Assembly: GCA_945877505.1 (NCBI GenBank)
Contig: CAMDWT010000018.1
Coordinates: forward strand, 1-39,472
DNA: 39,472 nucleotides
From: Crenothrix polyspora
GTDB taxonomy: Bacteria; Pseudomonadota; Gammaproteobacteria; Methylococcales; Methylomonadaceae
Direction of reading: 5' to 3'
Shown piece by piece: positions 2,544-15,748 of this stretch (position 1 is its first letter; every line of letters starts with the position of its first letter). Made by a program: the position numbers and the translations under genes. Below the pieces are notes generated by a model. The model saw nothing but the letters and a program-made list of their open reading frames with translations, was not told the origin of the DNA and made no database searches.

Positions 2544-5500
2544 ATGCCTGAGACACTTATTTTTTCACCGATTGTTCCTCAATCAAAAAATGAAGCAATT
2601 ATTTGGGCAGGTTTGGGTGGATGTGCTGATGCCTTAGCCTTAGCGTCAGCCATTGCTAATGAAAATCGGCTATTTGTTATAATCACCCCCGATAATCAAA
2701 CGGCTTTACGTTTAGAACATGAACTGGCCTTTTTTTTACAGGGTGAATATCCCCTATTGCATTTTCCCGATTGGGAAACATTACCCTATGATGTTTTTTC
2801 ACCGTTACCCGAAATTATTTCCGAACGGTTAAAAACATTGGCGTTACTGCCTCAGGTAAAACGAGGTGCTTTAGTGGTTTCAGTGACTACTTTAATGCAC
2901 CGATTAGCGCCCCGAGAACATGTCTTAGCGAATAGTTTTGCGATTAAAGTCGGTGAGGATTTTAATCTTGAACTAAATAGACTTAAGCTGGAAAGTGTGG
3001 GTTACCAATGTGTATCGCAGGTTTATCAACATGCGGAATTTGCGGTTAGAGGCGCCATTGTTGATATATTTCCGATGGGAAGTCATGTGCCGTTCCGTAT
3101 TGAATTATTTGATGAGGAAATTGAATCAATTCGGACCTTTGATCCAGAGACACAACGTTCATTAGAAAAAATCAATCAAATTCAGTTGTTTCCAGCACGT
3201 GAATTTCCCTTTACAGATGAGTCCATCAAGTATTTTCGGCAGGCTTTTAGAGCTAGCTTTCCGGAAACTTCACCTAAAAATTCTTTGTATCTTGATGTCA
3301 GTAAAGGCATAACGCCAAATGGTATCGAATATTATTTACCGTTGTTTGTTGAACAAACGGCCACCTTATTTGATTATTTACCGCCTTCAGCTATTTTAGT
3401 GACCTCAGATAGTTTTATGGCGACTGCGCAGGAGTTTTATGCAGAAGCTGATGAACGTTTTCAGCAACGTAAATATGATATCGACAGGCCATTACTTAAG
3501 CCGGAGTTGTTATTTTTAAATGCTGAGGCATTGTCCGCCAGAGCTGAGTCGTTTGCACGAATTACTCTGCAAGATCAAGCTCATGATGATGGTATCACGT
3601 TTACCTGTCATCAGTTACCTTCGGTTATATTGGATGGTAAATCAGCGCATCCTGCGCAGGCATTAAGTCAGTTTATCGATTCTTTTGCCGGAAAAATACT
3701 GTTTGTCTCAGAGTCTGCAGGGCGACGAGAAGCGCTTCTTGATAAGCTAAGAACATACAAGATTTCCGTTAAGCTCGTTGATAGTTGGCAGGCATTTTTA
3801 CAGTCGGAGGTTTCACCTTGTCTGTTAGTTGCGCCTATGGAGCATGGTTTATGGCTAGATAATCCTGCCATTGCCATTATTACCGAAAGCTTGCTATCAG
3901 GTGAAAAAGTGATGCAACGTCGCCGTAGGCGTCAATCTGCAGCGCGTGAGCTAGAAAATATTGTCAATAATCTTAATGAGTTGACGATAGGATCACCGGT
4001 GGTTCATCGAGATCATGGGGTTGGGCGATATTTGGGTTTGCAAACCTTGCAAGTCGGTGGCATTACTTCAGAATTTTTGATGTTGGAATATGCCAATAAC
4101 GATAAGTTATATGTGCCGGTTTCTACGTTATATGTCATTGGTCGATATACGGGTATGAGTCCAGAAAATGCGCCTTTGCATAAGTTGGGCGGGGACCAAT
4201 GGACTAAGTTAAAGCAAAAGGCAATTACCCGTATTCGAGACGTAGCGGCTGAGTTATTAGAGATTCATGCTAAGCGAGCGGTTAAACAGGGGCATGCTTT
4301 TATTGTTGAGGATGCCGATTATCAAAATTTTGCCGAAGCTTTTCCCTTTGAAGAAACCCCTGATCAATTATCGGCCATTGAAGCGATATTGGAAGATATG
4401 GCCAGCCCTCAGCCGATGGATAGGGTTATCTGTGGCGATGTAGGCTTTGGTAAAACAGAAGTGTCTATGCGCGCGGCTTTTATTGCCGTACAAAGTGGCA
4501 AACAAGTGGCGGTATTAGTGCCCACGACTTTATTGGCTCAGCAGCATTATCAGAATTTTAGAGATCGATTTGCTGATTGGCCTTTTCGGGTTGAGGTGTT
4601 GTCGCGCTTTGTAACGCCTAAGCAGCAGAAACAGATTGCCGAGGAATTGGCAGAGGGGAAAGTTGATATTGTTATCGGTACGCATACTTTATTATCTAAG
4701 GAATTAAAGTTTAAAGCGTTAGGCTTGGTGGTGATAGACGAAGAGCATCGTTTTGGTGTCCGCCAAAAAGAACATTTTAAGAAAATGCGCACAGAGTTAG
4801 ATATTTTGACCTTAACTGCCACACCTATTCCAAGAACGCTGAATATGGCTATGGCAGGGTTAAGAGATATTTCGATTATCGCCAGTCCTCCGCCTAATCG
4901 TCACGCGATTAAAACATTTATTACCGAATGGATAGACTCACAAGTCAGAGAAGCTTGTTTACGTGAAATTAAGCGCGGTGGGCAAGTATTTTTTCTGCAT
5001 AACGAAGTTAAAAGCATGGATAAGATGGCGAGAGAGTTGTCTGAGCTTATCCCTGAGGCGCGCATAGAAATTGCCCATGGACAACTCCCAGAGCGTGAAC
5101 TTGAACGCATCATGTTAGATTTTTATCACCAGCGCTTTAATTTATTACTGTGCTCTACGATTATTGAAAGTGGTATCGATATTCCTACGGCGAACACTAT
5201 TATCATCGATCGAGCTGATAAATTAGGATTAGCGCAATTGCATCAATTACGTGGTCGTGTAGGACGTTCACATCAACGGGCGTATGCTTATTTTATAGTG
5301 CCTCCAAAATCATTGCTAAGTAAAGACGCGATGAAGCGGCTAGAGGCGGTTGAAGCTTCAGGTGACTTGGGGGCAGGCTTTATGTTGTCGTCCCATGATA
5401 TGGAAATTCGTGGTGCGGGGGAGTTGTTGGGTGATGATCAAAGTGGTCAAATTCAGGAAATTGGATTTACTTTATATACTGAATTGTTGGATCGAGCGGT

Positions 5501-6490: not shown

Positions 6491-8125
6491 TTATTTTTCC
6501 AACTCATAAACATGAATGCTATTACGACCTGAGTTTTTAGATTTATAGAGCGCATCGTCAGCATTTTGATATAAAGTATCTTCGTCATTACCGTGTTCAG
6601 GGTAAAGGGCTATACCAATACTTCCGCTGATATTAATATTATAACCTTCTATGTCCATTGGTTTGTGTAGGGCCACTTTAATTTTTTCAGCAATTAATAG
6701 GGCACTTTTATGGTTTTGAATTTCTGGCAATATAATTACAAATTCATCACCACCAATACGCGCGATGGTGTCACTGTCTCTTATAAGGTTATTTTTAATC
6801 CTTAGGCCAACTTCTTTTAAAACAGCATCGCCAATAGAATGACCAAAACGATCATTAACCGGTTTAAAATGATCTAAGTCTAAAATAATAAGAGCAAAAG
6901 GAATTTTGCTGCGTGTGGAATGGGTGATTGCTTGTTGAATACGATCACTTAATAGGCGTCGGTTGGGTAGTCCTGTTAAGGGATCATGGAGGGCGAGTTG
7001 ACTTAATTGCTGTTCTTTGTTTTTAGTCAAGGTAATGTCTTGCACAACAATCCAGACGACTTTTCGAGCATCATTAAGGTTCTGATTTAGCGCAAACCCC
7101 TGAATCATGATTGGGAATTGAGTGCCATCTTTACGGGTGAATTCTTTTTCATTGGGGCCGAAATGACCATAGGTATTGAGATCATACATTTGTTGAATTT
7201 CTTGAAATTCGTATTCTTTTGGTGTGATGTCCCAAATGGTCAGGCTTAAAAATTCCTCTTTACTATAGCCGGTATAGATAAATAAAGACTGATTAGCTTC
7301 TAAAAATTCACCTGTTAGATGGTCGATCATTGCAATACCGACAGGGCTTGATTTAAAAAATTCTTGAAAGCGTTCTTCAGGGTGATGAAGTTTAATTTTG
7401 CTCGTTAAATCAAAGGCGTAACTGAGGTCATTTTCGAAGCTATCACGAAGTTTCAGCGCACCCAACAAATTGCCGATAAAGGCATCAATACAAACAGGGT
7501 CAAAGTGCAGGCCTTTATTGGATTCAAGGTGATGTATCACCTGATTAATATTCCACGTTGGCTTAAAAGTACGTAGGGATAATAAAGAGTCGAAAACGTC
7601 AGCAACCGCAACAATGCGAGAACTTAGCGGTATTTCTTCGCCAGCTAGGCCGTTAGGATAGCCGGTGCCATCAAATTTTTCATGATGGGTTAGGGCGATG
7701 ATAGCCGCTTCTTTTAAGAGTGGTAGCCGGCTATCATTCAAAATATCATGGCCAATAGTCGTATGGGTCTTTACGAGATCATACTCTTCAGCGGTTAGTG
7801 AGCCTTGTTTAAAGAGAATATAATCAGGGATACCGATCTTGCCGATGTCGTGACAAGAGCAAGCCATCATAAGTTTTTCTTGTTCGTTTACAGACCAACC
7901 TAAACCACTAGCAATCAATCGAGCATACTTGGACACTCTTAAATTGTGCGCGCTGGTGGCTTGGTCTCGGTAAGTCGTTACTTTTGCTAAGCGTAAAATA
8001 ATTTCTATCTCAATTTCGTATTCATTGATGGGTTCAAATGAAATAGGTGTTCCATGTAATAACTCGATCATAGGCTTATTAATTTGGTAATCAGTTATAT
8101 CAATGGCAGATTTATAGTCAGTCAT
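6491..8125 (-). CDS. HD-GYP / PAS / GGDEF bifunctional c-di-GMP signalling protein
   Basis: A 544-residue cytoplasmic protein with no membrane segment. Residues about 40-225 form an HD-GYP phosphodiesterase (CHDIGKIGIPD at 91-101, THHEKFDGTGYP at 146-157). Residues about 250-370 form a PAS sensor (FFKSSPVGIAMIDHLTGEF and following). Residues about 375-542 form a diguanylate cyclase with the intact active motif GGDEF (458-462). Five residues before GGDEF sits RDSD (449-452), which matches the RxxD inhibitory site for c-di-GMP. Both synthesis and breakdown therefore look possible, and the N-terminal placement of HD-GYP ahead of PAS and GGDEF is uncommon. It is transcribed away from the HD-GYP response regulator at 8330, across a 204-base shared upstream region. 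Confidence 0.9.
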   Translation of the reverse strand: MTDYKSAIDITDYQINKPMIELLHGTPISFEPINEYEIEIEIILRLAKVTTYRDQATSAHNLRVSKYARLIASGLGWSVNEQEKLMMACSCHDIGKIGIPDYILFKQGSLTAEEYDLVKTHTTIGHDILNDSRLPLLKEAAIIALTHHEKFDGTGYPNGLAGEEIPLSSRIVAVADVFDSLLSLRTFKPTWNINQVIHHLESNKGLHFDPVCIDAFIGNLLGALKLRDSFENDLSYAFDLTSKIKLHHPEERFQEFFKSSPVGIAMIDHLTGEFLEANQSLFIYTGYSKEEFLSLTIWDITPKEYEFQEIQQMYDLNTYGHFGPNEKEFTRKDGTQFPIMIQGFALNQNLNDARKVVWIVVQDITLTKNKEQQLSQLALHDPLTGLPNRRLLSDRIQQAITHSTRSKIPFALIILDLDHFKPVNDRFGHSIGDAVLKEVGLRIKNNLIRDSDTIARIGGDEFVIILPEIQNHKSALLIAEKIKVALHKPMDIEGYNINISGSIGIALYPEHGNDEDTLYQNADDALYKSKNSGRNSIHVYELEK

Positions 8126-8329: not shown

Positions 8330-9424
8330 ATGGTTGATGATTTAAATACACCTATTATTTTACTTATTGATGATACCCCTGATAGTCTCGATGTTACGAG
8401 GAATTTACTTAAAAGTTTATACAGAGTAAAAGTGGCAACAAGTGGTGTGCGTGGGTTAAAAATTCTTGAAGAGGAAGTGGTACTTCCTGATCTGGTTTTG
8501 CTTGATGTTATGATGCCTGAAATGGATGGTTATCAGGTTTGTAAAATCATTAAAGCCAATCCAAAGACCAAAGATATCCCTATTATTTTTCTGACTTCAA
8601 AAACTGACAGCATTGATGAGGAGTTAGGGTTAACCTTGGGTGCGGCTGATTATATTTCTAAGCCTATTAATCCCAGTATCGCACTGGCGCGAGTTAAAGC
8701 GCAATTGGATACTAAACGTTTGGCTAATTTTTTGAAAGATAAAAACTCTTATCTCGAAGTTGAAATTGCCCGGCGTATGGATGAGGTCACTAAAATTCAA
8801 GATGTGACTATTATGGCTATGGCTTGCCTTGCAGAAACACGTGACAATGAAACCGGCCAGCATATTCTTCGCACCCAAAATTATGTGAAGGTTTTGGCTG
8901 TGGAATTAAGTAAGAATCCAAAATTTGCAACGTATCTTACGAATGAACAAATTGAAATTTTATTTAAGTCAGCACCGTTGCATGATATTGGTAAAGTAGG
9001 TATTTCGGACAATATTTTATTAAAGCCTGGAAAATTGGATCCAGAAGAGTTTGAAATCATGAAAACGCATACCACAATTGGCCGAGATGCCATTGTAACG
9101 GCGGAAAAAATATTGGATACGCCGCATTCGTTTCTGCAATGTGCGAGGGAAATTGCTTATTCACATCAAGAAAAATGGGATGGCACAGGTTATCCATTGG
9201 GGCTTAAAGGCGATGATATTCCAATCTCTGCCAGACTAATGGCTTTGGCTGATGTCTATGACGCACTGATTTCTAAGCGTGTTTATAAGCCCGCAATGAG
9301 TCATGAGGACGCTGTGGCTATTATTGTAAAAGGTCGGGATACACATTTTGATCCGGATATGGTGGACGCTTTTGTAGAAGTGGCGCCTATTTTTGAATCG
9401 ATAGCCTTCAGGCACTCTGATTAA
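8330..9424 (+). CDS. response regulator with HD-GYP output domain (RpfG-like)
   Basis: 364 residues. The receiver domain (about 8-125) has the acidic pair D14/D15, phospho-acceptor D59 in LLDVMMPEMDGY, and K111 in ISKPI. A coiled linker (about 128-160) leads to an HD-GYP phosphodiesterase domain (about 165-355). The HD pair is H218-D219 (PLHDIGKVGISD) and the GYP motif is at 287-289. The usual HHE before DGxGYP reads H279-Q280-E281, a variant I believe occurs in this subfamily. The enzyme should degrade c-di-GMP when phosphorylated. It lies 89 bases upstream of the RsbR-like gene on the same strand. The natural phosphodonor candidate is the hybrid kinase at 11913. Confidence 0.92.
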   Translation: MVDDLNTPIILLIDDTPDSLDVTRNLLKSLYRVKVATSGVRGLKILEEEVVLPDLVLLDVMMPEMDGYQVCKIIKANPKTKDIPIIFLTSKTDSIDEELGLTLGAADYISKPINPSIALARVKAQLDTKRLANFLKDKNSYLEVEIARRMDEVTKIQDVTIMAMACLAETRDNETGQHILRTQNYVKVLAVELSKNPKFATYLTNEQIEILFKSAPLHDIGKVGISDNILLKPGKLDPEEFEIMKTHTTIGRDAIVTAEKILDTPHSFLQCAREIAYSHQEKWDGTGYPLGLKGDDIPISARLMALADVYDALISKRVYKPAMSHEDAVAIIVKGRDTHFDPDMVDAFVEVAPIFESIAFRHSD

Positions 9425-9513
9425 TAGCGCCAAAAAACACTTAACCGACTGTTTGTATAGACTTTTTTATTAAGGTCTTGAATGTTTTTTAAATACATTA
9501 AACTGGAATAACA

Positions 9514-10401
9514 ATGATTCAGGTAAATAGAACCTTAAGTAAATTCGTTTTTACTGAAAATGATGCTCAGTATGTCCGTGAAGCAGGTGAGTTGCTTAAG
9601 GATTATATCCCTGTATTTATCAATTCATTTTATGAGTGGCTGGCAGGTCAGGAGGAGTATCAATTATTCTTTGCAGATAATCCCGCTAGCATGGCCCGTG
9701 TAAAAGACATGCAGTCGAGTCATTGGCATAAGTTTTTTAAGGCTAACGTTGATCAAGAATATTTTAGTTCACGTCGCCATGTTGGCGCAGTCCATGCGCG
9801 GATAAATTTGGGTAATGATATTTACTGCGCGGGAATGTCTATTTCAGGTAATTTGCTGATTAAACAACTCCGCAGTATCAAAACGGCGCCCGCTCATTTG
9901 GATGCCATAATAGATGCCGTTAATAAATTAATCGCTATCGATACCTATTTAGCGTTAGATGAAATAGCTAATGTTAAAAATAAAGAGCTGGCTAGTTATA
10001 CTCAAACGCTAATGGCGATGTCTACACCGGTTATTCCAATTTGGGAGGATATTCTTTTATTACCTATTTTAGGGATAGTTGATTCAAGTCGCTCTCAAGA
10101 TATCATGAATAAAACGCTAGCAAAGATTGCAGAAACCAGTGCAAAAGTTTTTATTATGGATATTAGCGGGGTAGCTGCTATGGATACAGCCGTGGCTAAT
10201 CAGTTAATAAAAATCACTAAAGCGACCCAGTTAATGGGCTGTATTTCGATTATTTCAGGCATTTCACCCGAGGTGGCTTATACCTTGGTCGAGTTGGGTG
10301 TGCAAGTGGGCGATGTTAAAACCACGGGCTCGTTGCGAGATGCCGCAGCGATTGGCTTGGAATTAATTGGTGCAAAAATCATTAATGATCAGTCTATTTA
10401 A
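9514..10401 (+). CDS. rsbR: globin-coupled STAS protein, RsbR-type stressosome sensor
   Basis: 295 residues. Residues about 10-150 form a protoglobin/globin-coupled-sensor domain. The family motif VGAVHARINL places H94 as the proximal heme ligand. Residues about 170-285 form a STAS domain of RsbR type: TPVIPIWEDILLLPILGIVD, VFIMDISGVAAMDTAVANQL, then GISPEVAYTLVELGV. T225 (in MDTAVAN) and T257 (in AYTLV) fall at the two threonines that RsbT phosphorylates in RsbR proteins; this alignment is by eye. Known heme-RsbR proteins, for example in Vibrio, sense oxygen or related gases and build the stressosome shell. The next gene is the RsbS-like partner, after an 89-base gap without a terminator. 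The globin and STAS calls are firm; the ligand is inferred. Confidence 0.88.
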   Translation: MIQVNRTLSKFVFTENDAQYVREAGELLKDYIPVFINSFYEWLAGQEEYQLFFADNPASMARVKDMQSSHWHKFFKANVDQEYFSSRRHVGAVHARINLGNDIYCAGMSISGNLLIKQLRSIKTAPAHLDAIIDAVNKLIAIDTYLALDEIANVKNKELASYTQTLMAMSTPVIPIWEDILLLPILGIVDSSRSQDIMNKTLAKIAETSAKVFIMDISGVAAMDTAVANQLIKITKATQLMGCISIISGISPEVAYTLVELGVQVGDVKTTGSLRDAAAIGLELIGAKIINDQSI

Positions 10402-10490
10402 AAGTAGCGTGCTGATTTATTCATGGTTGGCATGTGGTTTTTTAAAGAACTCGTGATAAAAATTAATCATTTAAATGGACAGTCATTAAA

Positions 10491-10862
10491 ATGAGTTCTC
10501 TAGGCTTTAGTTATGGCTTGACCAGCGTTAAGGGTTCATTGATGCTGACGTTGCCTAGCTCTATTTCGGATGAATTTATAGAACAAATTAAGATCCTAGT
10601 GGCGAATGAAGCCAAGAAGACGCGTTCCCGGGCTGTGATTTTTGACTTTTCGGCGACTAAAATAATGGATTGTTCGGAATTCATAGACTTGAAAAATATG
10701 GCTAACTCCTTGCAATTGTTAGGCGTAGTTCCTTTGTTTGTGGGTTTAAGTCCCGGTATTGTGGTGCACTTGATCAACAATGATGTTTATTTTTCTGGCA
10801 TTAGTGCGTTAATAAATATTGAAGCGGCTTACGATTACTTAGATAAATTATATGGAAAGTGA
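10491..10862 (+). CDS. rsbS: stand-alone STAS protein, RsbS-like stressosome scaffold
   Basis: 123 residues, a single STAS domain. The pattern SRAVIFDFSATKIMDCSEF (46-64), then LLGVVPLFVGLSPGIVV, matches the central strand and loop of STAS antagonists. In B. subtilis RsbS the phosphorylated serine directly follows the conserved aspartate (MIDSF). Here that aspartate is D60 and the next residue is C61, with S62 one place later. Either the site has shifted or this copy cannot be switched in the normal way. The gene overlaps the next one, whose ATG lies at 10852 inside its final codons, so the two are translationally coupled. The RsbS role rests mainly on gene order. Confidence 0.72.
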   Translation: MSSLGFSYGLTSVKGSLMLTLPSSISDEFIEQIKILVANEAKKTRSRAVIFDFSATKIMDCSEFIDLKNMANSLQLLGVVPLFVGLSPGIVVHLINNDVYFSGISALINIEAAYDYLDKLYGK

Positions 10863-11925
10863 GTTAAATGGAAATATAACTTTCAAGATATCAAGCAAAG
10901 TTAATATATTTAGTATGATTGATAAAATCCCTAAATTGGGGGTTTTAAAAGAGAGTACAGCCGTTAACAGGATGATTATAACGACCATTGTTTCCGAGTT
11001 GGCGTGGAATATTCTTAAATACGCGCAACAGGGTGAAATTCGCTTATGTCGCAGTGTATTAGGCTCCAAAGTTAATATTGATATTTGGGCTCAAGATAAA
11101 GGTCCTGGTATCGTCAATGTAGATGTTGCGTTACAAGAAAATTATAGTTCTGGGGGAACGCTGGGTTTGGGTTTGCCGGCGGTTAAACGAATGTCTGATC
11201 TCTTTTGGATAAAATCAGATGTTGGTCAGGGGACTTTGGTGCTTGCGCGAAAGTGCATCAAAGAATTAAAACCAAATTTTAAGCTGGGATTTTCTTCATT
11301 TTTGCCGGTGGATACTAACGACCTAGTGTGTAATACCTATAAAGACTATGAGATAAGCGCCACGATTAAACCGTTCGATCATAATGATGTGGGTGGAGAT
11401 GCTGCCGTTATAATTGAATGTGAAGGTGGTTTTTTGTTGTCCATCATTGATGTTTCAGGTCATGGTGATGAGGCTCATGTGCTCGCCCAACATATTGTTG
11501 CTTTTATTAAGGATAACGCCAGTTCTGATTTGGTTAAATTGATGAAGAAATTGAACGCATTTTTAATGCTCACGCGAGGCGCTGCGGTGAGTTTGGTTTA
11601 TATCAATACCCGTCGTCATCGCCTACATTATCTTGGCGTGGGCAGCACGAATGCCGCTTTAGTAGGGGATAATAAGTGGCGAGGTGTTTCTCGAGAAGGT
11701 GTTTTAGGTGGTAGAATTCCATCAATGTTAGTGGAAGATGTAGTTGAGCTAACGAAGGGTGATGCCGTTTTGTTATGGACAGATGGCTTACCTAGCCAAG
11801 AAGTTATCACATTATTTCGTTCAATTACATGGAAATCAGCAACACAAATTTCTCAACAACTTATTACTGATCTAAGAAAGCATTATGATGATGCAGGATG
11901 TTTGGTTTTTAAATGGCTGAAATAA
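10852..11925 (+). CDS. fused RsbT-like kinase and RsbX/SpoIIE-type PP2C phosphatase
   Basis: 357 residues with two domains. Residues about 1-135 are a GHKL ATPase of the RsbT/anti-sigma kinase type: the N-box is [15 protein letters not shown] (44-58), the G1 box is QDKGPGI (81-87) and the G2 box is TLGLGLPA (103-110). Residues about 165-355 are a PP2C phosphatase: NDVGGD (178-183), DVSGHGD (200-206), TDG (310-312) and a terminal HYDDAG. In the classical stressosome, RsbT phosphorylates RsbR and RsbS while RsbX removes the phosphates. Here both activities sit on one chain. It overlaps rsbS by 11 bases and the hybrid kinase by 13 bases. It might instead be named an ATP-binding SpoIIE-family phosphatase. 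Confidence 0.87.
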
Positions 11926-14588
11926 TTGAGTTGGGTAGCCTTTCGCTAAGCGACAACAATGCGTTGCTTAATGTGCGTGAGAAAGCCTATGACTTAGTTG
12001 TAGTCCTGACTAATGAGGTCAGTTTTGCCTCAAAATTTGCGGCAGAAATATCGGATTTATATCGTTGGTTATTGCGATATGCCGAGTCCCCCAGTTTAGT
12101 TGTCAAGGTGAGTGTTGACTCATTCGATTATCAGTTGGTTTTCGATTTTTTCACCAAAAATCGTTTAGATTTGACGGCTAGTCTACCTTGTAATCCCGTG
12201 CATTTTGTTAATGTTACCCCTTCAAGTGACGGGATTAAGGCGACTATTCGTCATGCTATTAACGCGCCTTTATTTACTCGCGATCAAGTACCCAGTCTTC
12301 GTGCATCTCTAGCAACACAATCTGTTGAGGCTTTACTGGAAGATCTCCGCTGTAAAAATGAACAGTATGCTGCTGCGATAGCGATTGCAGAGCAAGCATT
12401 ATTAGCGAAGTCAAATTTTGTGGCTAATGTAAGCCATGAAATTAGAACGCCTATGAACGCCGTCATTGGTATGAGTCATTTGGCGCTTAATACTGAATTA
12501 ACAATTAAGCAGCGTGATTTTATAGAAAAAATCCTGAGTTCTGCGCATCATTTACTGGGTATTATCAATGATATCTTGGATTATTCAAGAATAGAAGCCG
12601 GTAAAATGAGCTTGGAATCAACGAATATGAATCTAAATTATATTCTTGATAATGTCACTAACTTATTGGCAACGAAATGTTCATCCAAAAATATTGAACT
12701 AATTTACAATGTTGAGAGTGATGTTCCGCTTGAATTAATAGGTGATCCGCTTCGACTTTCTCAAGTGATGATTAACTTTGTAACGAATGCGATTAAATTT
12801 ACTGAGAAAGGTGAAGTTAATATTAGCATTAAAAAAGTTAACCAACTGATAGGTAAAGTACTCTTGCACATTTCAGTCATTGACACAGGTATTGGTGTAG
12901 AGGCTTCACAGCTAGGTAAGCTTTTTCAGAGCTTTCAGCAGGCTGATGACTCTATTACAAGAAAGTATGGCGGAACGGGACTTGGTTTGGCTATTTCAAA
13001 GTACCTTGTAGAGCTTATGCAGGGTGAAATTGGTGTAGACAGTATTTATGGCCAGGGATCTACTTTTTGGTTTACAGCTTGGTTTAATTGTCCTGAGCAG
13101 ATAAACCAACCACGATTGCCAGAAAGCGCTCTCAACGATCGAATACTCGTCATTGATGGCAGTCAAGCGGTTAGAACAGCACTCAGTCACTTATTAATCA
13201 GGATGAGATTACGGGTCGATGTGGTTGATTCAGGCGAGTTAGCAATTGATTTGATTAAGCAGGCTGAACTAGAAGGGGATTTTTATCATATCGTTTTTAT
13301 CGATTTTAAGGTGAACAGCAGGACCCCGCTTCAAGTTATTAAAAACATAAAGATACTGGCGCTTGGGGTACAGCCCAAAATAGTCTTGATGAATAGTTTT
13401 GAGACGGATGATTTGTCTTTTAATGATCAAGCCTTAGTAGACGGCATTTTGGTAAAACCGATAACCCCTTCTGATATGTTGGATCAAGTCATGATTCAAA
13501 TTGGGCGTCCTACTAAAAATAAACAGGCCCATTTACTGCATAAAGGTTCTCGAGAATCATTGCAATTGATTTCAGGTGCAAGAGTATTAGTGGTTGAAGA
13601 TAATGAATTAAATCGAGAAGTTGCCTCTTTATTGTTGATGGAAGCAGGGTTTAAAGTTGATTTTGCAGAAAATGGAGTAATCGCAATCGATAAGGTTTTA
13701 CAGCTTAAATACGATATCGTTTTGATGGATATGCAAATGCCGATAATGGATGGCATAACAGCAACCCTTGAAATTCGCAAACTGGAGCAGTTTGCAAAGC
13801 TGCCTATTGTGGCGATGACGGCAAATGGTATGTTGTCTGATATTAATAACTGCCTTTCGGCGGGCATGAATGATCATCTGCTCAAGCCAGTGGAGCCACA
13901 AGATCTTTGGGATAAGCTCATAAAATGGATTCAGCCTCGAGAAGGTTTAGGTGAGAAACCTAAAAAGAAAACGAAGACCTTTGATGTTGAAGAACAATTG
14001 CTTCCTTCTGAGATAGAGGGCTTGAATATAGAAGATGGATTACGACGAGTGTTGGGTAATAAAGCGCTGTATTTATCAATGCTGCAGAAATTCATCAAGG
14101 GTCAGCGTGGGTTTTGTGACGACCTTGCTACGCCTCTGGAAGCCAATGACTGGGCTACCGCAGAGCGTGTGGCGCACACCTTAAAGGGGGTTTCTGCGAG
14201 TATAGGCGCGGTTAATTTGTCTGAAAAAGCAAAGATATTGGAAAAGTTGTTACATGATTGTGCTGAACGGAGTGAAGTTGATGACGCTTGCATTCAAGTC
14301 AAGTTAATCTTGGATAAGATAATTGAAGAACTTGAAGCAAAAATGCCGTTAAAAAAAGAAGATATTAGTTTGTTGGCTATTGTCGATAAAGACTTACTAA
14401 GCCAGGTTGTTACTCATCTCAGACAGTTGCTTATCGATTCAGACGGTGATGTTGTTGATTTTTTCAAAAAAAATCAGGCTATCATGAAAGCGGCATTTCC
14501 GGCTTATTTTTTGCGTTTAGAGCAATCTGCTGAGAATTATGATTTTGATGAGATGCTGATTTGCTTGAATGAAGCGACTAAGAATTAA
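11913..14588 (+). CDS. hybrid histidine kinase with two receivers and HPt
   Basis: 891 residues, cytoplasmic, with no membrane segment. Residues about 1-125 form an N-terminal domain whose [12 protein letters not shown] and [16 protein letters not shown] resemble a degenerate RsbT-like ATPase lacking catalytic boxes. A coiled linker follows (about 135-165). HisKA has H175 in [10 protein letters not shown], and the HATPase (about 285-400) has DTGIGV and [10 protein letters not shown]. The first receiver (about 410-535) is degenerate: it has D464 but only one acidic residue in VIDGSQ. The second receiver (about 553-675) is intact (EDN, D606 in LMDMQMP, K in LKPVE). An HPt domain carries H755 (AHTLKGVSA). 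The gene is coupled to the RsbTX fusion by a 13-base overlap, so it is the likely output or input arm of the stressosome. Confidence 0.9.
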
Positions 14589-14625: not shown

Positions 14626-14639
14626 TTGATTTGGATCAA
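14626..14639 (+). promoter_or_regulatory. perfect FNR box with matching -10 element
   Basis: TTGATTTGGATCAA is an exact match to the FNR consensus TTGAT-N4-ATCAA. If it is centred at -41.5 (class II position), the -10 hexamer should fall at 14662-14667, where AAGAAT is found. This would drive the small lipoprotein gene at 14763 under low oxygen. The regulator, fnr, is encoded just downstream on the other strand. Confidence 0.72.
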
Positions 14640-14762: not shown

Positions 14763-14882
14763 ATGAAAATTATTAGCCAATTATTATTGTTAGTTATCGC
14801 TGTAGCTTCACTTACTGCTTGTGATTCAACTAAAGGTCCTAGTAAGCCAGCAGAAACAACGTCTTTACACGCTGCTTTATAA
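14763..14882 (+). CDS. small lipoprotein, probably FNR-regulated
   Basis: 39 residues. MKIISQLLLLVIAVASLTAC is a short signal peptide ending in a lipobox (LTAC), with the lipidated cysteine at position 20. Mature DSTKGPSKPAETTSLHAAL follows, about 20 residues without known domain. The ATG is preceded by AAAAGAGAAAAA. Entericidin-like and other tiny lipoproteins look like this, but the sequence is not one I recognise. It stands alone between the hybrid kinase and fnr, with an FNR box about 125 bases upstream and a strong hairpin 58 bases downstream. Its function is unknown, but its context indicates anaerobic or microaerobic expression. Confidence 0.65.
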   Translation: MKIISQLLLLVIAVASLTACDSTKGPSKPAETTSLHAAL

Positions 14883-15010: not shown

Positions 15011-15748
15011 TTAGTGCGTATCGTTAGAAAGTGCTGTTTGGCAGGGTTCAATAATGGCTTTTAATAAGTCAAGGTCGAGAATTTTAATGGCACGGTGGTT
15101 GACCGTGATAATATTTTCTTTGATTAATACGCTCAGTTGACGACTAATAGTTTCATGGCTAACACCTAGGTAGTTGCCGATATCTTGACGACGCATACTT
15201 AAGTTAAAAGCGTTGCTTGAATAGCCCAGCGCACTGTAACGCTTGGATAGCATCAACAAAAAAGTCGCCATTTTTATTTTTGCTGAGTTTTGCCCCAGTA
15301 AGATCATCTGTTCGTGATTAGCTGAAATTTCCTTGCTTAAAATACGCGTCAACTGGTATTGAAGATTAGGTATTTCTGTACAGAGTTCATTAAGCCTCGT
15401 TAAGGGGAGTTCACAAACCGAACTGGTTTCTAAGGCATCAACAGAACTGCTAAAACGTCCCTCAAACAAAGCATCCAGCCCCATTAATTCACCAGGTAAA
15501 TAAAAGCCAAGCGTTTGCTCAATACCTTCTGAATTCATAATAAAGCTTCGAAAAGAACCGGATTTTACCGCATATAAACTCTTACATAATTCATCTTTTG
15601 AATACAGTAATTCGTCTATTTGTAAGGGTCTTTTTATTTTTATGATAATTTCAAGCGTTTCAACTTCATTAATTTGCAAGCCATAAGGCAGGCATAAATC
15701 AGATAATTTACACGATAAACAGGAGGTTTTTGGGGGATTAGGTGTCAT
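15011..15748 (-). CDS. fnr: FNR oxygen-sensing transcription regulator
   Basis: 245 residues. The [4Fe-4S] ligands are C10, C13, C19 (SCLSCKLSDLCLPYG) and C112 (ETSSVCELP). Their spacing of 3, 6 and 93 residues is identical to E. coli FNR (C20, C23, C29, C122). The cyclic-nucleotide-like beta-barrel spans about 30-125, the dimer helix follows, and the helix-turn-helix is DIGNYLGVSHETISRQL, with the recognition residues E199, S202 and R203 that read TTGAT. This makes it a true FNR rather than a CRP or DNR type. It is the third gene after the M48 peptidase and rsgA on the minus strand, 29 bases after rsgA. A perfect FNR box lies beyond its 3' end. Confidence 0.95.
   Translation of the reverse strand: MTPNPPKTSCLSCKLSDLCLPYGLQINEVETLEIIIKIKRPLQIDELLYSKDELCKSLYAVKSGSFRSFIMNSEGIEQTLGFYLPGELMGLDALFEGRFSSSVDALETSSVCELPLTRLNELCTEIPNLQYQLTRILSKEISANHEQMILLGQNSAKIKMATFLLMLSKRYSALGYSSNAFNLSMRRQDIGNYLGVSHETISRQLSVLIKENIITVNHRAIKILDLDLLKAIIEPCQTALSNDTH

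Follow-up and report, generated by a model that had tools for sequence, protein, structure and literature searches.

A five-gene cluster at positions 8,330 to 14,588 of contig CAMDWT010000018.1 of the methanotroph Crenothrix polyspora probably encodes a globin-coupled stressosome of the Vibrio type, with RsbT and RsbX fused into one protein, the regulator gene placed upstream, and a phosphorelay running to the receiver of that adjoining regulator. The whole contig (39,472 nucleotides) was analyzed and is referred to as the window; it is part of a 2.46 Mb genome. The classification as a variant of the Vibrio-type system is based on loci with the same gene set in the Vibrio genus. Genes, domains, key residues and the conservation of the cluster are established, and a fold is predicted for the N-terminal domain of the kinase (HKn). 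The cluster comprises the following features:

8330..9424, + strand: REC-HD-GYP response regulator (Pfam Response_reg 3.4e-24 and HD_5 4.9e-30).
9514..10401, + strand: RsbR, protoglobin and STAS (Pfam Protoglobin 1.4e-29 and STAS 1.1e-11; PDB 7o0i_B, E 5.2e-76).
10491..10862, + strand: RsbS, single STAS (Pfam STAS 1.2e-4; PDB RsbS chains).
10852..11925, + strand: RsbT kinase fused to RsbX-type PP2C (Pfam HATPase_c 2.5e-6 and SpoIIE 9.1e-11; trees).
11913..14588, + strand: hybrid histidine kinase, 891 aa (Pfam HisKA 2.1e-21, HATPase_c 2.5e-26, two Response_reg stretches, Hpt 6.6e-12).
11913..12269, + strand: HKn, with a predicted RsbW/SpoIIAB/RsbT fold lacking ATP-binding motifs (hhalign, AlphaFold2, VIA-align Z 11.6).
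12405..13076, + strand: HisKA (H175) and HATPase_c catalytic core (Pfam, residue positions).
13137..13502, + strand: REC1, degenerate, limits approximate (residue positions).
13584..13916, + strand: REC2, intact, with E562/D563, D606, T636 and K658 (Pfam, residue positions).
14079..14339, + strand: HPt, with H755 (Pfam, residue positions).

The five open reading frames (ORFs), all on the + strand, were found at the coordinates given by an earlier sequence-only reading of the window. Its description of a globin-type stressosome, an RsbT-PP2C fusion, an HPt hybrid kinase and an HD-GYP regulator in one gene cluster was borne out by the Pfam matches, at whose E-values chance is no concern. The domains it named were all recovered; the first ~120 residues of the kinase were missing from its list. 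Gaps of 89 nt separate the regulator gene from rsbR and rsbR from rsbS, while the following genes overlap by 11 nt (RsbS/RsbT-X) and 13 nt (RsbT-X/kinase). A terminator-like site at 10407-10435 was within chance expectation (10 such sites found vs. 6.9 ± 3.2 expected). A position check confirmed the residue numbers H755 (HPt) and D59 (regulator receiver) proposed earlier, and these two, together with H175 of HisKA and D606 of REC2, are placed as their domains require. The window kinase thus holds a complete set of phosphorelay residues: the HisKA histidine, the ATPase domain, a receiver aspartate and the HPt histidine. REC1 is degenerate: D464 is retained, VIDG replaces the acidic pair with the loss of one acidic residue, and the Thr/Ser is gone (LMNS).

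For comparison, a phylum-wide draw returned RsbR in 38 of 398 genomes at 1e-22, the window included, with three others at 1e-69 or better, and loci were read for 12 of the 37 other genomes. At class level the window alone was returned at E 1e-35 (1/369), which is a sampling result, and a family search around genome G762 returned only G762 (1/146). RsbR of genome G624, one of the three others at 1e-69 or better, matched chain B of PDB entry 7o0i at E 5.4e-168. We regard 7o0i as the V. vulnificus complex, with 48 RsbR and 12 RsbS chains and an RsbS of 115 residues (the paper prints 7O01); on the strength of this match, the genus of G624 is called the Vibrio genus here. RsbR occurred in 24 of the 196 genomes of this genus, and all 24 neighborhoods were read. 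The locus of G624 (L071) has the order RsbR-RsbS-RsbT-RsbX-kinase-REC-HD-GYP regulator; by Pfam its kinase holds HisKA, ATPase, two receivers, HPt and PAS, and its regulator REC and HD. The order RsbR-RsbS-RsbT-(RsbX)-HPt hybrid kinase-REC-HD-GYP was present in 22 of the 24 loci (L071, L083-L097, L099-L104), with the regulator split into two frames in L095 and no RsbX between RsbT and kinase in L100. L105 has no HD-GYP regulator. All that remains in L098 is RsbR and a kinase remnant with a receiver and an HPt. Two other loci (L072, L073) consist of RsbR, RsbS, RsbT, RsbX and a kinase with two receivers and HPt, and hold no HD-GYP regulator within the stretch read. A locus from another class (L074) has a PAS-type RsbR, a fused RsbT-RsbX and the same kind of kinase; regulators of REC-sigma54-activator (by Pfam) and REC-GGDEF type lie by this kinase at 3289-4785 and 1339-2286.

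The HPt hybrid kinase and the HD-GYP regulator had been presented as setting the window apart from Vibrio. Because 22 of 24 loci of the Vibrio genus hold the same pair, it is the rule there and not new, and this claim had to be given up. In the accessible parts of the papers, to which all citations here refer, degradation of cyclic di-GMP (c-di-GMP) is already a hypothesis for the downstream module of V. vulnificus, in which delta-RSTX and delta-D1 mutants had similar phenotypes (PMC10014275), and eleven downstream architectures of globin stressosomes have been published, with a figure legend naming HDc and HPT (PMC9237108). The term HD-GYP is absent from the main text of both papers. With the rsbRSTX-D1-D2 system of V. 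vulnificus and V. brasiliensis, the window shares a protoglobin-STAS RsbR, an RsbS without the canonical serine, RsbT, an RsbX-type PP2C, an HPt hybrid kinase with two receivers, a REC-HD-GYP regulator and a predicted RsbW-fold kinase N-terminus without ATP motifs, a likeness read in genomes of the Vibrio genus rather than in the strains named. It differs in that RsbT and RsbX are one protein, the regulator gene comes first instead of last, REC1 is degenerate, and no PAS was found by Pfam in the window kinase, whereas D1 contains a PAS domain according to Heinz et al. (PMC9237108). The description by Heinz et al. further includes a single-domain RsbX; in the window the PP2C is fused to RsbT, hence the term variant. 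The STAS core of RsbR and RsbS with an RsbT kinase is common to the window and B. subtilis RsbRST, but a hybrid kinase phosphorelay stands in place of the RsbU-RsbV-RsbW-SigB branch and the serine position of RsbS is not kept.

In RsbR, the protoglobin spans residues 7-149 and the STAS domain residues 173-264, and residues 11-288 of 295 align with 7o0i_B. Identity to RsbR of L071 was 45% over 275 columns. H94 and Y40, which we take to be residues with heme roles, were invariant in the nine RsbR aligned; T225 aligns with T233 of VvRsbR and S191 with S199, and T270/T271 were noted as further residues. By analogy with Vibrio, RsbR would bind heme and sense O2, and RsbR and RsbS would assemble into a pseudo-icosahedral stressosome. 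The STAS score of RsbS (22.2 bits) was slightly below the Pfam cut-off (22.6), but its assignment as RsbS is backed by matches to PDB RsbS chains (1e-6 to 3e-5) and by a profile that includes 14 relatives. The window RsbS reads D60-C61-S62 instead of the canonical D-S. The serine directly after the conserved aspartate is the RsbT phosphorylation site of B. subtilis RsbS; a switch of this kind is lacking in the window protein, which counts against the system favored here. The same site reads D-L-T in eight and D-V-T in one of nine host-genus relatives, and D-S in all five more distant Methylomonadaceae RsbS of the same alignment; a Ser/Thr one position further along is retained in all 10 host-genus RsbS. 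In the Vibrio genus the serine is missing from all 23 RsbS read, two of which (L093, L094) have D-T. For V. brasiliensis, Jia et al. (PMC4976288) report that the B. subtilis phosphosites are not conserved in RsbS and that the ligand state of RsbR alters RsbT phosphorylation. Genomes G127 (L061, 1404-2285) and G118 (L062, 6982-7866) each encode another globin RsbR, which stands alone outside the cluster and retains the D-T site.

The first 120 residues of the kinase gave no Pfam match at 1e-3, and those of four relatives likewise none to E 0.05; RsbU_N in particular was not matched in these five N-termini, an absence that is weak evidence. Profile comparison pointed to the RsbT family: an HKn profile built from nine domains aligned with that of separate RsbT at an hhalign probability of 91.6-93%, while PP2C, STAS, globin, receiver and HPt profiles reached at most 0.5%. 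A HisKA-ATPase control reached 58% in an alignment of 14 columns from the adjoining helix and 0.2% once trimmed, and the profile of RsbT-like kinases gave 42-47%. In VIA-align, the predicted model of the window HKn was closest to RsbW (Z 11.6, root-mean-square deviation (rmsd) 2.7, 108 aligned), UsfX (11.3) and SpoIIAB (11.2), followed by LvrC as the best match of another kind (7.9) and by histidine-kinase ATPase domains (approximately 6). As an independent test, the Vibrio-type HKn was folded from 22 of the 23 kinases identified in the Vibrio genus, with L105 omitted, at a predicted local distance difference test (pLDDT) of 85. Its first 19 Foldseek rows were all RsbV/RsbW, SpoIIAB, UsfX or SigF complexes (best E 1.3e-5), and VIA-align again gave RsbW (Z 10.8, rmsd 2.6, 97 aligned) ahead of LvrC (7.2), with the rest outside the anti-sigma kinases at 5.0 or below. 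In both models HKn runs into a long predicted helix with conserved residues. The N-box pattern was found in none of nine Methylobacter-type (host-genus) HKn and one of 22 from Vibrio, and the G1 pattern in none of the 31; both were present in 41 of 41 RsbT-like domains of these loci. The patterns were simple and home-made, and a G2 pattern that matched 26 of these 41 was dropped. Because the N-box and G1 are lost, HKn is predicted to be a fold relative of RsbT, RsbW and SpoIIAB and not a kinase. Some other Methylomonadaceae kinases start with an RsbT-like domain that retains both motifs (L033, L039, L043), which may be the ancestral state.

Several results speak against this view of HKn and its role. 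The HKn profile matched the genus' own fused-T profile at 0.0% and other fused T at 3-4%, the AlphaFold2 model of the window HKn reached a pLDDT of 65 with no Foldseek match under 1e-3, and trimmed Vibrio HKn matched Methylobacter-type HKn weakly in hhalign (2-18%). An initial 96-98% between Vibrio and other HKn was rejected as proof of homology, since it fell to these values without the C-terminal helix. Published two-hybrid work detected no positive RsbT-D1 interaction (PMC9237108). Single N-termini of L071-L074 gave no match to the RsbT profile (at most 1.5%), and their values against HKn were uneven (L072 91%, L073 47%, L074 12%, L071 30% across 31 columns close to the helix). A pooled profile, by contrast, reached 94.9% against RsbT, with controls up to 1.3%.

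RsbT controls RsbU via a coiled coil, and an extension of this to histidine kinases has been proposed (PMC12143880). We tentatively suggest that HKn is the docking step between stressosome core and kinase. A more specific form of this idea is somewhat doubtful: the dead RsbT/RsbW-fold HKn may take the place of RsbT on the RsbR/RsbS core, or else pair with RsbT, so that the kinase would be captured or released according to the O2 state, which in the Methylobacter branch would be set by the single fused kinase-phosphatase. The best-surviving alternative, itself only a tentative one, is that RsbT phosphorylates the kinase and HKn is a structural relic or a dimerization domain. Such phosphorylation was suggested by Heinz et al. 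for V. vulnificus D1, in which no RsbU_N domain was found (PMC9237108), and the RsbT kinase motifs of the window protein are intact. Against it, the predicted models of the first domain from two distant lineages both show the fold of an anti-sigma kinase, and this domain directly precedes a long helix, likewise predicted, that has conserved residues.

The window regulator has D59 in its receiver and the motifs DNETG, HDIGK (218) and HQEKWDGTGYP (GTGYP 285); it thus carries the HD and GYP motifs that define HD-GYP c-di-GMP phosphodiesterases, and it is 53.7% identical to the regulator of L071 over 363 columns. Conservation of its position was assessed in the host genus, where 10 of 35 genomes carry the fused RsbT-RsbX gene. 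RsbR was found in nine of these 10 (the contig of the remaining one, L057, breaks off shortly after RsbS), and the order RsbR-RsbS-RsbT-X-kinase holds wherever the contig permits, except for the broken kinase of L056. Short same-strand gaps or overlaps were present in all seven loci measured. The upstream neighbor was readable in nine loci, including that of G039, which is split over contigs L063 and L030 and was joined by analogy with the one-contig G156. An intact REC-HD-GYP was found in three (window, L031, L058) and a receiver plus stub in four (L056, L063, L059, L060), in each of which ~120 residues including the HD and GYP motifs are gone between the identical two points. The remaining two (L028, L029) have a REC-kinase-REC protein instead, with an HD-GYP regulator on another contig (L064, L065). 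Of the earlier expectation that the regulator always adjoins the rsb genes, the part that stood is a receiver-bearing upstream protein in 9/9 loci; an HD-GYP neighbor as a rule was rejected at 3/9. The receiver is therefore conserved across host-genus loci and the c-di-GMP output is not, for which reason c-di-GMP breakdown looks like a lineage-specific output.

These deletions and replacements count against the proposed system, as do two further findings. In the receiver tree, the window receiver falls among HD-GYP regulators encoded at other sites in the genus and not in the locus clade (98/98, midpoint root), so that the case for its orthology is made by gene position and by the identity of the full-length protein, which is highest to the regulator of L031 (62%, G142). 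In L056, which belongs to a one-contig genome, the kinase gene (10627-12245) is interrupted by a transposase-like ORF (11034-12245), with RsbR, RsbS and RsbT-X open; the loss seems to extend into the next REC-kinase-REC gene. A second alternative, which we regard as unlikely, follows from the same data: the adjoining receiver itself could be the real conserved output, as a phosphate sink or a partner-binding receiver, and the HD-GYP domain dispensable in the host genus. In its favor, the four deleted forms keep REC and group together in the receiver tree (93/97), and the receivers of four REC-kinase-REC proteins lie inside the locus receiver clade and for that reason look like copies of the locus receiver. 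On the other side, the HD-GYP motifs are intact in the window, L031, L058 and the Vibrio-type regulator of L071, and the four deleted loci form no group in the tree of RsbR (two changes, at an unresolved fork); a single deletion event is thus likely, not proved.

In all 10 host-genus genomes that have the gene, the PP2C is fused to RsbT; the window protein, with intact RsbT kinase motifs and the PP2C motifs VGGDA, DVSGHG, TDG and DDAG, is 36-39% identical to four of the nine other copies. RsbT and RsbX are separate genes in L072, L073 and those Vibrio-genus loci that have both. The window protein was the longest branch in a first tree of the T part, in which it joined the common RsbT-like-PP2C proteins of other Methylomonadaceae weakly (92/74). 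When Vibrio-type T and L074 were added, the window branch moved into their group (93/85), together with the fused protein of L074 (96/87), and the idea that the fused protein is one of these common RsbT-like-PP2C proteins was rejected. The X-part tree likewise united the window branch with L074 (89/84) within a group with Vibrio-type X (89/84). The group supports of 93/85 and 89/84 are just below the tree tool's own starred level, and the window rows are long branches in the T, X, receiver and RsbR trees, so that their exact placement is unsure. Since both the T and X trees unite the window branch with L074 inside the Vibrio-type group, the fusion looks like a single event within Vibrio-type stressosomes. 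Stressosome loci of other Methylomonadaceae also have an ATPase domain fused to a PP2C or histidine kinase beside RsbR/RsbS-type STAS genes. They differ in that a separate RsbT is also present in eight of nine PP2C-fusion loci used (the contig of L032 ends there), their ATPase domains keep the N-box and G1, and their fusions form a separate tree group. A PP2C acting as an RsbU-like output phosphatase on an anti-anti-sigma factor rather than as a feedback RsbX is very unlikely: Heinz et al. (PMC9237108) name PP2C output modules in some globin stressosomes, e.g., Methylomicrobium, but in the tree the PP2C domain clusters with X of Vibrio-type loci (89/84), where X is a gene of its own. A fusion of RsbT and RsbX was the subject of no paper in the literature listings searched, whose coverage excluded most subscription papers and the reviews of 2005 and 2017 that the Vibrio papers cite. 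With opposing kinase and phosphatase activities in a single polypeptide, the fused protein would be a bifunctional editor of the core.

For the Vibrio-type stressosome favored here, we infer every transfer step, the docking of HKn and the c-di-GMP output. The heme RsbR would read O2, as published for Vibrio, and form the stressosome core with the STAS protein RsbS, which the fused RsbT-RsbX would phosphorylate and dephosphorylate. HKn, with its predicted ATP-less RsbT/RsbW fold, and the helix behind it would pass the state of the core to the kinase, directly or via RsbT. Phosphate would then move from H175 to D606 of REC2, H755 of HPt and D59 of the regulator receiver, and the HD-GYP domain of the phosphorylated regulator would break down c-di-GMP in this species. 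The weakest step is, evolutionarily, the c-di-GMP output and, biochemically, the HKn step.

Among the neighboring genes, an Fnr-type regulator lies at 15011-15748 (- strand), convergent to the kinase gene; it scored 219.8 bits against an NCBIfam Fnr subfamily, below the cut-off of 228, and has an N-terminal C-x2-C-x5-C run. The sole perfect FNR box of the window, TTGATTTGGATCAA, is at 14626-14639, between the kinase gene and a small lipoprotein-like ORF (~14763-14882). A search with up to two mismatches gave 62 matches vs. 36 expected, so single weak matches mean little. An HD-PAS-GGDEF protein is encoded at 6491-8125 (- strand), divergent from the regulator gene, with a perfect sigma-70-like site at 8270-8243; the flanking regions read beside the clusters of host-genus relatives showed no GGDEF match.

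Within the literature searched, the RsbT-RsbX fusion, the natural HD-GYP deletions and the predicted anti-sigma-kinase fold of the kinase N-terminus are new relative to known globin stressosomes with c-di-GMP or phosphorelay modules. To judge from the natural deletions, the receiver may persist after its c-di-GMP output has been lost. How the signal leaves the stressosome without RsbU or SigB was left open for Vibrio in the accessible text of PMC9237108. With a kinase start of predicted RsbT/RsbW fold and without ATP motifs in both Vibrio and a methanotroph, this question becomes directly testable with purified proteins.

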